The notes under the pieces were generated by a model. That model saw nothing but the letters and a program-made list of their open reading frames with translations. It searched no databases and was not told the DNA's origin. Positions 13,032-59,758 of a DNA stretch of 64,000 bases are shown here, one piece after another. The number at the start of each line of letters is the position of its first letter. Position 1 is the first letter of the stretch. This DNA is from Jiangella alba (GTDB lineage: Bacteria > Actinomycetota > Actinomycetes > Jiangellales > Jiangellaceae), in assembly GCF_900106035.1 (NCBI RefSeq), contig NZ_FNUC01000003.1, positions 248,001-312,000 on the forward strand. The letters run 5' to 3'. Both the position numbers and the translations under genes were made by a program.

Positions 13032-13135
13032 CGTGATGCGCCGCGCGGCGCGTCGGCGCGGTACTCCGTGCTCGTCGACGAGCGGCCGCGCGACGCCGCC
13101 GCCGGCTGACCGGGCTGGACGCTTTGCAGTGAGCA

Positions 13136-13170
13136 CCCATACGCACCACCCCGCTGGTGGTGCGTATGGG
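13136..13170. repeat. Palindrome family A, copy 1
   Basis: CCCATACGCACCACC and GGTGGTGCGTATGGG form a perfect 15-bp stem around CCGCT. The left flank TTTGCAGTGAGCA is shared with copy 2 at 46897-46954, so this is a dispersed palindromic element. It follows the subtilase gene and could also act as a transcription terminator. Confidence 0.75.
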
Positions 13171-13180
13171 CGTTGGGCCC

Positions 13181-13670
13181 ACCCCTCCCGGCCGGGTGGG
13201 CCACCGACTCTACGGGCGCGCACCGACAACGTCCGCGGTTACGGCTGCGGCTGCGGCCGGCGGTGACGGGGCACGAACATGGCGGCTGACGAGCGGGGCG
13301 GCCGTCGGCGGCCGGGCACGAGATCGAGCGGGTGCGGCGCAACGAGTGCGGGCGGGGCGGCCGGCGTGGTGACGGGCGCGAGGCGACGCGGCGTGGGCCC
13401 GCCCCTCCCGGCCGGGTGGGCCACCGACTCTACGGGCGCGCACTGACAACGTCCGCGGCTTCGGCTGCGGCTGCGGCCGGCGGTGACGGGGCACGAACAT
13501 GGCGGCTGACGGGCGGGGCGGCCGGCGGTGGCCGGGCACGAGCATGGCGGGTGCGGCGCCTCGAGTGCGGGCGGGGCGGCCGGCGTGGCGACGGGCGCGA
13601 GGCGACGCGGCGTGGGCACACCCCTCCCGGCCGGGTGGGCCACCGACTCTACGGGCGCCCACCGACAACC
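13181..13670. repeat. About 220-bp direct repeat, two units plus a partial third
   Basis: The phrase CCCTCCCGGCCGGGTGGGCC followed by ACCGACTCTACGGGCGC recurs at about 13181, 13401 and 13620, a period of 219-220 bases. Between copies, the segments GGCGGTGACGGGGCACGAAC and GACGGGCGCGAGGCGACGCG also repeat. The period is not a multiple of three, and no frame carries a recognisable protein. A related sequence lies in opposite orientation at 57746-58043. Confidence 0.75.
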
Positions 13671-13725
13671 TCGCCCACAGCCCACAGCCCACAGCCCACA
13701 GCCCACGCCGGTCGACGGGGCCGAG

Positions 13726-28789: not shown

Positions 28790-28838
28790 GCGTCTGCACC
28801 GCCCCGACCCTGTCGGTGCCCGCTGATAGCTTCGCGAC

Positions 28839-30053
28839 ATGGCCAGACGAGAGAGGTTGACGAACGCGGCGGCCCGGCGGGTGGCGCTCGCGGCCCAGGG
28901 GTTCGCCGACCCCCGCCCGCCGAGCCCCGACCGGCGCGCCGTCCGCCGCGTCGTCGACCGCGTCGGCGTCGTGCAGATCGACTCCGTCAACGTGCTCTCG
29001 CGCTCGCACTACCTGCCGTTCTTCAGCCGCCTCGGCCCCTACCCGCGCGCCGAGGTCGACCGCGCGGCCAACAAGTCGCCGCGCATGCTGTTCGAGTACT
29101 GGGCCCACGAGGCGTCGCTGCTGCCGGTGCGCACCCAGCCGTACCTGCGCTCGCGCATGGCCCGCGCCGACGAGCTCGCCTGGGGCGGCATCCGGCGGCT
29201 GGCGCAGGAGAAGCCCGATTTCGTCGCCTGGGTGCTCGACGAGGTGAAGCGGCTCGGCCCGGTCACGTCCGGCGAGATCGAGCACGACGCCCCTCGCGAG
29301 AAGACCGACTGGGGCTGGAACTGGTCGGACGTGAAGACGGCGCTCGAGTACCTGTTCTGGGCCGGCGAGGTCACGGCGGCCGGCCGCAACGGCTCGTTCG
29401 CCCGGCTGTACGACATCCCCGAGCGGGTCCTGCACCGCGACGTCCTCTCGGTCCCGACGCCGACGCCCGACGAGTCGCATCGCGAGCTGGTCCGCATCGC
29501 CGCCCGGGCGCACGGGGTCGGGTCCGAGCAGTGCCTGCGCGACTACTTCCGCCTGCCCGTCGCCGGCGCGAAGTCGGCCATCGCCGAGCTGGTCGACGCC
29601 GGTGAGCTGCTGCCGGTCACCGTCGACGGCTGGAAGCGGCCGGCCTACCTCCATCGCGACGCCCGCGTGCCTCGCCGGGTCGACGCCCGGGCGCTGCTGA
29701 GCCCGTTCGACTCGCTCATCTGGGAACGCGCCCGCACCGAGGCGCTGTTCGGGTTCCGGTACCGGCTGGAGATCTACGTCCCGCCCGAGACACGCGTGCA
29801 CGGCTACTACGTGCTGCCGTTCCTGCTCGGCGACGAACTGGTGGCCCGGGTCGACCTCAAGGCCGACCGTCAGGCCGGAGTGCTGCTGGTGCAATCGGCG
29901 TGGGGCGAGCCCGGCTCACCGGCCGACACCCCCGACGAACTGGCCGACGAGCTGGTGTCGCTGGCCGGCTGGCTCGGCCTCTCCGGCGTGACGACCACCG
30001 GCCGCGGCGACATCGCCACCCCACTCCAGGAGGCCCTCGACCGCGCCGCCTGA
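28839..30053 (+). CDS. YcaQ/AlkX-type winged-helix DNA glycosylase
   Basis: A 404-residue protein of the HTH_42 family, whose characterised members unhook interstrand DNA crosslinks. The catalytic Q-x-D motif is Q46-I47-D48 in [19 protein letters not shown]. Tandem winged-helix regions follow, and a C-terminal beta domain starts at [20 protein letters not shown], both typical of the family. The ATG start follows only a weak ribosome site. It stands alone between the hpf terminator and the tandem repeat. The exact substrate cannot be read from sequence; the Q-x-D form is that of the E. coli YcaQ branch. Confidence 0.85.
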
Positions 30054-57645: not shown

Positions 57646-57745
57646 CACTGGACCGGCGTCGGCCACTCGCCGCTCATGGCGAGGTGGCGGGCGGCCGGGC
57701 GCGGTCCGTCACCGTAGGGGTCGCTGGCGCGCGGACCTTGTCGAT

Positions 57746-57808
57746 GCGCGGACGTTGTCGGCGCCCGCCCGTAGGGTGGGTGCCCTCCCGGCCGGGCGGG
57801 GACCGTAC
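57746..57808. repeat. 63-bp repeat, copy 1, related to the 13-kb repeat
   Basis: It begins GCGCGGACGTTGTCGGCGCC and ends GCGGGGACCGTAC, and is identical to 57981-58043. Its reverse complement contains CTACGGGCG followed by CCGACAACGTCCGCG, shared with the repeat units at 13181-13670. Confidence 0.8.
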
Positions 57809-57980
57809 CTCGCGTCAGTCGAGTCGGCCGAGCTTGACGGAGCGGCCGCGCCGGTAGCGGGCGGGGCCTCAGCCGACCCCGCGGCGGCGCACCAGCCGGA
57901 CTGCGGCCAGGCCCGCGGCGGCGCACCAGCCGGACCGCGGCCAGACTCGCGGTGGCGGACCGCCCCGGGCCTCGGCCGGC

Positions 57981-58043
57981 GCGCGGACGTTGTCGGCGCC
58001 CGCCCGTAGGGTGGGTGCCCTCCCGGCCGGGCGGGGACCGTAC
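57981..58043. repeat. 63-bp repeat, copy 2
   Basis: Exact copy of 57746-57808, 235 bases downstream in the same orientation. The flanks, including CGGCCGCGCCGGTAGCGGGC, are also similar, so the true unit is longer than the identical core. Confidence 0.8.
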
Positions 58044-58283
58044 GTCGGGTCGACCGGGCTCGACGAAGCGGCCGCGCCGGTAGCGGGCGGGGGCTCGGCC
58101 AGACCCGTGCCGGCGCATCACCGAGGCGGCCGCGCGGCCCTCATCGGCACCGTCCGACACGCCGAGGCGGCGAAATCCGGCGTCCCCGCCGATTCGCGGC
58201 ACTTGCCCACCTTGTGCGCTCGCCTGCGGAAATGACAGCGCTGTAGTTATCGCGGGCTGCTTCGCGGCCAGAGTGAATGGTGT

Positions 58284-58313
58284 TACGGTCATGCACGAGT
58301 GGTGCGAGGGAGG
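58284..58313 (+). promoter_or_regulatory. -10 and ribosome site of the M23 gene
   Basis: TACGGT (58284-58289) fits TANNNT, and GAGGGAGG (58306-58313) is six bases before the GTG start. TTCGCG lies 17 bases before the -10 as a weak -35. Confidence 0.45.
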
Positions 58314-58318
58314 CCGCT

Positions 58319-59758
58319 GTGAAGGCTGTGACAACTGAGACGTCGTGGGCGCGGCGGGTGACCGTGATCGTCGTCACCGTCGGCCTTCTCTGCACCGGTC
58401 TGAGCCAGGCATGGGCCACGTCCGACGCCGAGCGACGGTTGAAGGACGCGCAGAACAGCCTGGAGCACGCCCAGGATCAGCTGGCCCACTCCACGCAGGC
58501 GCTCGCCGACGCGACGGCCGCGTACCAGGCGGCGACGGCGCAGTTGCCGGCCGCCGAGGCGACGCTGGCCGGTGCACAGCAGGGCCTGGCCACCGCCGAG
58601 CACGAGCTCGAGGTCGCACGCGGCGAGGTCGCCGCGGCACGGGCGGCGGACGAGGCGGCGGCGCAGAAGCTGGCCGAGGCCGAGAAGAAGGTCAAGGACC
58701 AGATCGCCAAGATCGACGATGTCACCGAGCGGATCGACGGCAAGCGGGCGTCGATCAGCCAGGTCGCCGTCGAGGCGTACACCCGCGGCGTCGGCGCCGA
58801 CCTCGCCAGCCTCACCATCCTCATGCAGGCCGACAGCATGGACGCGCTCGCCGCACGCGCCGCCGCGTCGACGTCGGTGCTGACGGCCGAGAACACCATC
58901 CTCGGCGCCCTCAAGGACGACCGCGCCGAGCTGGCCAACGAGCGCGTCGTCCTCGAAGACCTCGAAGCGGCCGCCGAGGAGGCCCGCCAGCTGGCGGCCG
59001 CCACCCTGCAGGCGACGGAGGAGCGCGAGCAGGCCGCCGAGGCCGCCCGCGCCACCGCGCAGGCGGCCAGCGACGCCGCCGCGGCGGCGAAGGCCGAGGT
59101 CGACCAGCTCGTCTCCGCCCGCGACGGTGCGAGGACGGCGGCGGAGGCGGCCCAGGTCGCGGACCAGGCCCAGACGGCGGCCTGGTCGGCCGAGCGGGAC
59201 CAGATCGAGGCCGAGATCGCCGAGATCCAGCGCAGGCAGCAGGAAGAGGCCGAGCAGGAGCAGGCCGAGCAGGAAGCCGAAGAGGACAACGGCGGCGGCG
59301 GTGGCGGCGGCGGAAACGGCGGCGGCGGAGGCGGCGGCGGTGGAGGAGGCGGCGGCGGTGGCGGCAGCTCCGTCACGCTGGCCTTCCCGACCGCGAACCC
59401 GTACGTCACGTCGCCCTACGGCATGCGCGTCCACCCGGTCACCGGCGTCTACAAGCTGCACGACGGCACCGACTTCCGGGCCTACTGCGGCACGCCGATC
59501 CGCGCGGCCGCCGCGGGCACCGTCGAGTGGGCCTACTACCGGGGCGCGTACGGCAACCAGGTCGCCGTCAGTCACCGGCGCATGGTGTCGACGTACAGCC
59601 ACCTGTCGCGGTTCGCCGTCAGCGATGGCGAGAGCGTGTCGCAGGGCGAGATCATCGGCTACTCCGGCACGACCGGCAGCTCGACCGCGTGCCACCTGCA
59701 CTTCATGCTCTACGTCGGCGGCGAGCGCGTGAACCCGATGAACTACCTCGGGCAATAA
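58319..59758 (+). CDS. Coiled-coil M23 peptidase, probable FtsEX-dependent wall hydrolase
   Basis: A 479-residue exported protein. The signal peptide is [20 protein letters not shown] near residues 14-33. Residues 35-315 are an Ala/Glu/Gln-rich coiled coil as in PcsB and EnvC proteins. A linker of about 25 residues is nearly all glycine. The C-terminal LytM domain has the zinc ligands in LHDGTDF (HxxxD) and HLHF (HxH), so it should be an active endopeptidase. PcsB-like proteins act with FtsEX, encoded just upstream; in mycobacteria the partner RipC is NlpC/P60, so the M23 type is a variation. smpB follows. Confidence 0.92.

Follow-up and report, generated by a model that had tools for sequence, protein, structure and literature searches.

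A dispersed intergenic repeat family of Jiangella that joins a PafBC-type promoter motif to a GC palindrome

Introduction

Promoters propagate in prokaryotic genomes as mobile promoters, which lie before genes. Another relevant system is the RecA-NDp promoter, reportedly described by Gamulin in 2004. RecA-NDp is the older name of the promoter class of the DNA-damage activator PafBC, a class that, according to extracts of the papers cited, reaches beyond mycobacteria (PMC8223512) and is found in Streptomyces as well (PMC5087735). The extracted text of PMC8151990 prints the PafBC motif as TGTCGG-10xN-TA-3xN-T, gives TGTCAG and TGTCAC variants in M. tuberculosis, and reports the orientation of the motif as important. 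Known PafBC sites are solitary and stand before genes. The GTAG-tagged REPs, BIMEs and REPINs, which go with RAYT transposases, form a further group of short, high-copy, intergenic, palindromic and species-variable elements in convergent and tandem spacers (PMC3733652, PMC2817692, PMC8049555, all in extract). One end of the REP palindrome bears a fixed GTAG (or CGTC) tag. Their dimers are mostly head-to-head or tail-to-tail in the case of REPs (PMC3733652, in extract), and E. coli BIME-2 binds gyrase (PMC2817692, in extract).

The repeat described here, from the genome of Jiangella alba (7.68 Mb, four contigs), has traits of all of these. In most copies it matches the PafBC motif exactly, as TGTCGG/TGTCAG-N10-TA-N3-T (PMC8151990, in extract), but it occurs in more than 100 similar copies, mostly at gene 3' ends and accompanied by a GC palindrome. 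With mobile promoters, a comparison that draws on general knowledge of that class, it shares a promoter-like sequence multiplied across a genome, whereas its copies are mostly not before genes. It has the size, copy number, placement and species variability of REPs, and repeated palindromes also liken it to the gyrase sites of BIME-2, a likeness drawn without sequence comparison. Among the literature matches listed, all from open-licence papers, there was no report of this repeat or of repeated PafBC motifs, which is weak evidence of absence.

Results

Two sites of one repeat family

The window, a stretch of 64,000 nucleotides, has five copies of the repeat at two sites (Table 1). The spacers that hold them are free of called genes, in line with the description of the element in an earlier sequence-only reading as dispersed and mostly intergenic. 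The 13 kb spacer is flanked by the 3' ends of a subtilase gene and of an HTH regulator gene (with a LuxR-type GerE match just below the Pfam cut-off). The array there consists of three copies that start near 13174, 13394, and 13615 (spacing 220 and 219) and have identities of 94–95% over 126–149 nt. The pair at the 57.7 kb site starts at 57746 and 57981 (spacing 235), lies on the opposite strand to the 13 kb copies, and is identical over the first 63 nt and 97% identical over 71 nt. After reverse complementation the two sites have in common CCCGGCCGGG and CTACGGGCG[C/G]GC[A/G]CCGACAACGTCCGCG, while 13 kb copy 2 reads CACTGACAACG and copy 3 reads CGCCCACCGACAACCTCG. A 27-mer searched with up to three mismatches had four matches in the window, as against none in 100 shuffles. 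This shared core confirms the proposal, made in the sequence-only reading, of one repeat family at both sites in opposite orientation. Rfam 15 gave no match in the window at the gathering score.

Table 1. Coordinates of repeat copies and related features. Positions are those of the window except for the last three rows, which give positions on contigs of the J. alba genome.
Feature	Position	Strand	Sequence or context
Head-to-tail array, ~220-bp units with three cassettes	13174..13672		within convergent spacer 13032-13725
Cassette copy 1, 13 kb	13183..13228	-	motif TGTCGGTG-CGCGCCCG-TAGAGT at 13207-13228
GC palindrome of copy 1	13183-13200		CCCaCCC-GGCC-GGGaGGG
Cassette copy 2, 13 kb	13403..13448	-	motif TGTCAGTG-N8-TAGAGT at 13427-13448; palindrome 13403-13420
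Cassette copy 3, 13 kb	13622..13667	-	motif TGTCGGTG-N8-TAGAGT at 13646-13667; palindrome 13622-13639
Single non-repeat PafBC-type motif	28811..28832	+	TGTCGGTGCCCGCTGATAGCTT; 48 nt before AlkZ-like DNA glycosylase gene 28881-30053
Spacer between ftsX and M23 peptidase gene	57646..58357		holds copies 4 and 5
Cassette copy 4, 57.7 kb	57756..57800	+	motif TGTCGGCG-CCCGCCCG-TAGGGT at 57756-57777
GC palindrome of copy 4	57783-57800		CCCtCCC-GGCC-GGGcGGG
Cassette copy 5, 57.7 kb	57991..58035	+	sequence as copy 4; motif 57991-58012; palindrome 58018-58035
GTTCACG copies, contig C2	214822-214984; 259119
GTTCACG copies, contig C3	2776866-2777234; 2824717; 3136178-3136652
GTTCACG copies, contig C4	3033974; 3147128; 3147428

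Three further features adjoin these copies. A partial left-end copy (GCGCGGACCTTGTCGATGCGCGGACG) occupies 57723-57755, immediately before copy 4, and short tandem CCCACAG units at 13674-13707 adjoin copy 3. Past the subtilase gene, positions 13136-13170 form a near-perfect inverted repeat, CCCATACGCACCAC...GTGGTGCGTATGGG, with a folding z of -7 relative to shuffles. It is perhaps a terminator of that gene, although it has no T-run and a scan of the 13 kb site for intrinsic terminators (hairpin plus T-run) lists none.

Size and distribution of the family

The core pattern, with up to three mismatches allowed, matched 37 times in the J. alba genome and not once as a reversed-pattern control. Of the first 30 copies, 29 went into a sequence model (L025, cut by an insertion sequence, was omitted), which gave at least 149 matches at E<=1; 135 of these reached 6e-6 or better. 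The count of 149 and that of at least 150 in the genome designated G010 may be undercounts. Curation removed seven of the 149 (reverse hits on the same palindrome, duplicates, and pieces at insertion sequences), leaving 142 copies, or about 140. Some comparisons below use the 135 top copies, from which the 14 lowest-ranked matches are left out.

The family varies widely in number within the genus. At E<=0.01 the model found at least 147 matches in J. alba and 7, 25, 0, 6, 74, 1, 26, 76, 36, at least 150, and 46 in the other Jiangella genomes. Matches thus occur in 11 of 12 genomes at this threshold, the single match of G006 being marginal (E 0.00997), and in 10 of 12 at E<=1e-4; at the latter threshold, ten genomes from five other genera of the order gave none. 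Similarly, a cassette pattern (motif, gap of 3–7, palindrome) was found in 10 of 12 Jiangella genomes, with 113 matches in J. alba and 181 in G010, but in none of 381 other genomes sampled from part of the class, and its reversed control had none. A scan of named genomes with the exact core 29-mer returned 16 stretches, all from Jiangella. The repeats are one family of ~75-bp intergenic cassettes, confined to Jiangella among the genomes searched.

The core matches the PafBC motif

Read on the strand opposite to that quoted in the sequence-only reading, the core is TGTCGGTG-CCCGCCCG-TAGGGT. This sequence fits TGTCRG-N10-TANNNT, the published motif of PafBC, and the earlier reading, which quoted the other strand, had overlooked this known promoter motif in the shared core. 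The match is exact in 119 of the 142 curated copies, in 113 of the 135 top copies, and in all five window copies. A stricter form, TGTCRGTG-N8-TANNNT, has 118 exact matches in the genome (reversed control, 0), 94 of which lie within the 135 top copies.

Variation among copies follows the motif. In the 125 copies that begin with TGTC, the fixed positions 6, 17, 18, and 22 of the 22-mer deviate 0, 3, 2, and 1 times, as compared with 1–18 deviations (mean, 8) at the 14 positions given as R or N in the consensus (Mann-Whitney p = 0.006, which is only a guide because the copies are related). Both motif halves are kept by 11 of the 12 copies whose spacer is two or more changes away, versus 108 of the 130 others; copy detection requires two of three modules, which favors copies with an altered spacer that keep both halves. 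Most copies also conserve the spacer CCCGCCCG well, beyond what a promoter alone would require. A coding reading of the core (D-V-V-G-A-R-P-stop) was dropped on inspection by eye, several variants altering residues or losing the stop.

Single motifs outside the repeat provide a comparison. The motif before the AlkZ-like gene (Table 1) may serve as a reference for an ordinary promoter of the PafBC class. The same motif, in single form, precedes genes that we take, from recognition of their translations rather than a family search, to be recA (53 nt), uvrB (34 nt), and uvrC (7 nt), as well as genes for a DEDD exonuclease/UvrC-like protein (37 nt), a HEPN protein (51 nt), and thymidylate kinase (6 nt). 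Not all single motifs precede repair genes. Among the first seven motif loci, one stands before what is presumably an AzlC-like transporter gene, L100 before an unnamed protein, and L095 without a near gene; L095 and L100 are also divergent copies of the repeat. The 12 further loci include one motif within a called gene with no start behind it, one without a same-direction start within 600 nt, one with its nearest start at 171 nt, and two that overlap called gene starts (of a NIPSNAP protein and a methyltransferase-like protein); the genes behind others have no known role in repair (GDPD, two AraC-type regulators, DUF4262).

The genome also encodes a PafC-type protein (HTH_PafC, E 2.4e-37), directly preceded by a WYL/WCX protein, both 4–6 kb from pafA; PafB is assigned by position and domains only, and NCBIfam named neither candidate. 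Strict motifs number 3–26 per genome in other genera of the order, 29–35 in Jiangella G001–G004 and G006, 118 in J. alba, and 198 in G010, with reversed controls of 0–4 per genome. Judged from these sequences, the PafBC-type motif is in use in this genome.

The palindrome and a variant upstream half

A palindrome of the form CCCxCCC-N2-7-GGGyGGG is present in 136 of 142 copies, and in 130 of 142 it starts 4–6 nt past the last T of the -10 element. Transcription normally starts 6–8 nt after the -10 element, so that transcription from a cassette would begin at the edge of the palindrome. The middle pair of the palindrome is T/C, A/A, or A/C in 121 copies, T/A in 14, and G/A in one. It is mismatched in 122 of 136 copies, indicating that base pairing is not being maintained there. 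DNA folds of the five window cassettes were not clearly better than those of shuffles (z from -0.9 to +2.1), and RNA folds of five stretches were unremarkable, one of them (57700-57762, minus strand) being uninformative on the palindrome. RNAalifold found no compensatory pair in 29 copies, and we therefore make no claim of RNA structure. Instead of forming a hairpin, the palindrome may be recognized by a protein.

In 13 copies the TGTCRG half-site is replaced by a direct repeat with an 11-nt period, GTTCACG-N4-GTTMACG, or a close variant (Table 1). All 13 have a T/A palindrome, and the repeat lies at a nearly constant distance from the -10 element. The GTTCACG half is possibly the swapped-in site of another activator, and these copies also speak against PafBC as the driver of the whole family.

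Genomic context

Copies favor convergent spacers and avoid divergent ones, the usual place of promoters. Of 101 intergenic sites, 41 are in convergent spacers, compared with 24 of 202 copy-free spacers (p = 3e-8), while divergent spacers hold 10 of the 101 sites and make up 88 of the 202 (p = 9e-10). The background comprised copy-free spacers of at least 100 bp from the same stretches as the copies, and 13 sites that overlap called genes were set aside; genes came from a home-made codon caller, which extends some of them into spacers. Orientation in tandem spacers is random, the motif running with the gene direction in 31 cases and against it in 27, with median distances to the stop codon of 245 and 159 nt. 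Strand showed no clear bias along the two large contigs.

A gene start in the same direction lies within 200 bp for only 14 of the 135 top copies, and ten of these 14 genes, when tested, were not a repair set. The copies are hence promoter-like without being members of a gene-regulating PafBC set, and the scarcity of downstream genes is the main evidence against a gene-regulating promoter. Their placement is compatible with noncoding transcription, with a 3'-end element, or with copies simply sparing promoters from harm.

Adjacent copies are on the same strand, head-to-tail, in 23 of 23 pairs; four of 27 listed pairs were left out (two reverse-strand hits on the same palindrome, a split hit, and an element cut by an insertion sequence). 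Their starts are 117–369 bp apart, and the spacing, noted as 220–235 bases in the sequence-only reading, is not fixed.

Conservation in place and change in copy number

Single copies were compared between J. alba and G010. In 13 ortholog pairs, identity covers 281 of 286 bases in the core and 378 of 390 in the palindrome, the former value being partly built in, since the core was used for finding the orthologs, and the latter depending in part on the exclusion of three pairs of another type. Further out, identity drops to 84% over the adjoining 8 nt upstream and to 65% over the 12 nt beyond them, to 59% in the 14 nt past the palindrome, and to 43–44% in the outer flanks (20–60 nt upstream and 66–100 nt downstream). 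These flank values are ungapped, and flanks at a few sites (18, 30) still partly align. For comparison, fourfold-degenerate sites in 95 genes that match G010 at >=85% identity differ at 1981 of 21305 positions (9.3%). The single copies are islands of conservation in largely unalignable spacers for these 13 pairs of J. alba and G010.

Eighteen sites on contig C3 could be placed on an 800-kb stretch of G010. Twelve have a standard core in G010, sites 14, 19, and 25 are variant or degenerate, site 32 is without a copy in G010, site 28 gave a weak match, and site 15 was not read. The test omitted two non-orthologous rows from contig C4, sites 15 and 28, sites 19 and 32 (whose J. alba copy is without a standard core), and three pairs in which the palindrome differs or an indel occurs (557672 and both ftsX copies). 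Among 29 G010 core matches, the ortholog ranks first for 12 of the 13 copies. It also scores higher than the best paralog in J. alba for 11 of 13 (one tied, one lower), and gene conversion is consequently not favored as the cause of the likeness.

Copy number at a given site, by contrast with sequence in place, is changeable. The 13 kb site has no copy in G011, one of another palindrome type in G005, two in G008, and three in J. alba. The spacer after ftsX has two copies in J. alba, one in G010, and one in G008, with none in the 720 nt after the gene in the other nine Jiangella genomes. The mobility suggested in the sequence-only reading is only part of the picture: Jiangella genomes have between 0 and at least 150 copies, and the 13 kb site between 0 and 3, whereas the compared single copies are held in place.

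The spacer after ftsX is swapped almost wholesale between species whose ftsX genes are 85–98% identical (L216–L227), and G001 and G003 have a different sequence there. Other recurrent intergenic palindromes were seen by eye: TGATCATCAACCTTTTG... and TGACCATCCAAGAAACGGG... in L220 and L225 (ftsX spacers of G009 and G011), L128, L136, L127, and L138, and palindromes like CTTCACYAGG...CCTGGTGA in L219, L221, and L227.

Relation to transposable elements

The Y1_Tnp profile (RAYT/IS200), the one transposase profile searched, had no match in any of 12 Jiangella genomes, J. alba included, and was positive in 5 of 14 genomes as a control. This agrees with the sequence-only reading, which had seen no linked transposase, and an origin from RAYT/IS200 elements was rejected on this result. 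The sequence GTAG is present at the palindrome end, where its G deviates in 15, its T in 3, and its A in 2 of 125 copies; GTAG is also the edge of the -10 element.

In L199 (C4:2297977-2299035), L149 (C3:1624039-1624087), and L116 (C1:51822-51855), copies seem to be interrupted at CTAG by insertion sequences. One of these sequences has the ends ATGAGTGAGTCC and GGACTCACTCAT, which are 1 kb apart in L199, and is followed by a DDE_Tnp_1 gene in L149; the third copy is cut by another element, which starts with GTGTGGTGTCCA.

Discussion

We propose, with about an even chance of being right, that the repeat is a Jiangella promoter-plus-palindrome cassette kept by selection, which probably starts damage-induced noncoding RNAs; its promoter activity is deduced from the motif. 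A typical cassette would consist of a PafBC-type, RecA-independent DNA-damage promoter followed by a GC palindrome over the expected transcription start. Cassettes would have spread through the genome and then multiplied locally by head-to-tail duplication, and those at single sites would later have been kept by selection. PafBC and housekeeping RNA polymerase would fire them after DNA damage. The products would be noncoding RNAs, as the scarcity of same-direction gene starts suggests, and would often run toward or across the 3' ends of neighboring genes.

The main rival, which we consider rather unlikely, is a nonautonomous, largely functionless mobile palindrome of the REP/BIME kind, with the promoter match as a by-product. 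The range from 0 to at least 150 copies between species, the 0, 1, 2, or 3 copies at one site, and the preference for convergent and tandem spacers, as for REPs (PMC3733652, in extract), all suit such an element. So does its sequence, since GTAG followed by GGTGGG resembles the Haemophilus REP GTAGGGTGGGCTTcAGCCCACC, which, as the Jiangella core does, starts with GTAGGGTGGG (PMC2817692, in extract). However, the genus has no Y1_Tnp, and clusters are head-to-tail only, as opposed to the head-to-head or tail-to-tail REP dimers. Nor is the G of GTAG fixed; the five window copies fold no clearly better than shuffles, the middle pair is mostly mismatched, and the compared copies are conserved at their sites. 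Because two defining REP features fail, we do not file the Jiangella repeat as a REP. A structural element at gene 3' ends that has no promoter role, serving either as a bidirectional terminator or, like BIME-2, as a site for gyrase or a nucleoid protein, would account for the strong convergent excess, the indifference to orientation, and the nearly universal GC palindromes. It is nonetheless less probable again than a REP-like origin, given the lack of a T-run or terminator-like site at 13 kb and the long distances from stop codons, and it leaves the least-variable positions, TGTCRG and TANNNT, unexplained.

The cassettes could also act as decoys, which would capture the PafBC-polymerase complex after damage with no productive transcription and thereby adjust the response. 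Their excess over single motifs (94 of the 118 strict matches) and the position of the palindrome right at the expected start are compatible with decoys, but a decoy does not need a palindrome, and we regard this explanation as quite improbable. That the window holds two unrelated local duplications, alike by chance, was the refuting outcome named in the sequence-only reading; a genome-wide copy search rules it out, with 37 matches against none in the control and at least 149 with the model, leaving it practically no probability.

If the promoter-plus-palindrome reading is carried to the whole genome, some Jiangella would have extended their damage regulon by ~110–180 dispersed cassettes, which are conserved at their sites in the comparisons made and would initiate noncoding RNAs, often antisense ones, at the ends of genes. 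We offer this extension tentatively, as a possibility somewhat short of even. If true, it would constitute a genome-wide damage-response layer with no counterpart in these searches, built on a swappable upstream module that is mostly the PafBC half-site and, in 13 copies, the GTTCACG direct repeat. Without damage-induced transcription, the family would be a repeat of the REP type whose motif is striking. The usual explanation for dispersed repeats in bacteria is a palindrome that a transposase has moved; the Jiangella repeat carries the full motif of a known activator that senses single-stranded DNA, and it is conserved at its site in the 13 pairs compared. The family raises the questions of how more than 100 promoter sites at gene ends would affect the damage response and how a promoter-like sequence multiplies without a known transposase, and its copy number, from 0 to about 180 within one genus, makes Jiangella a natural experiment.
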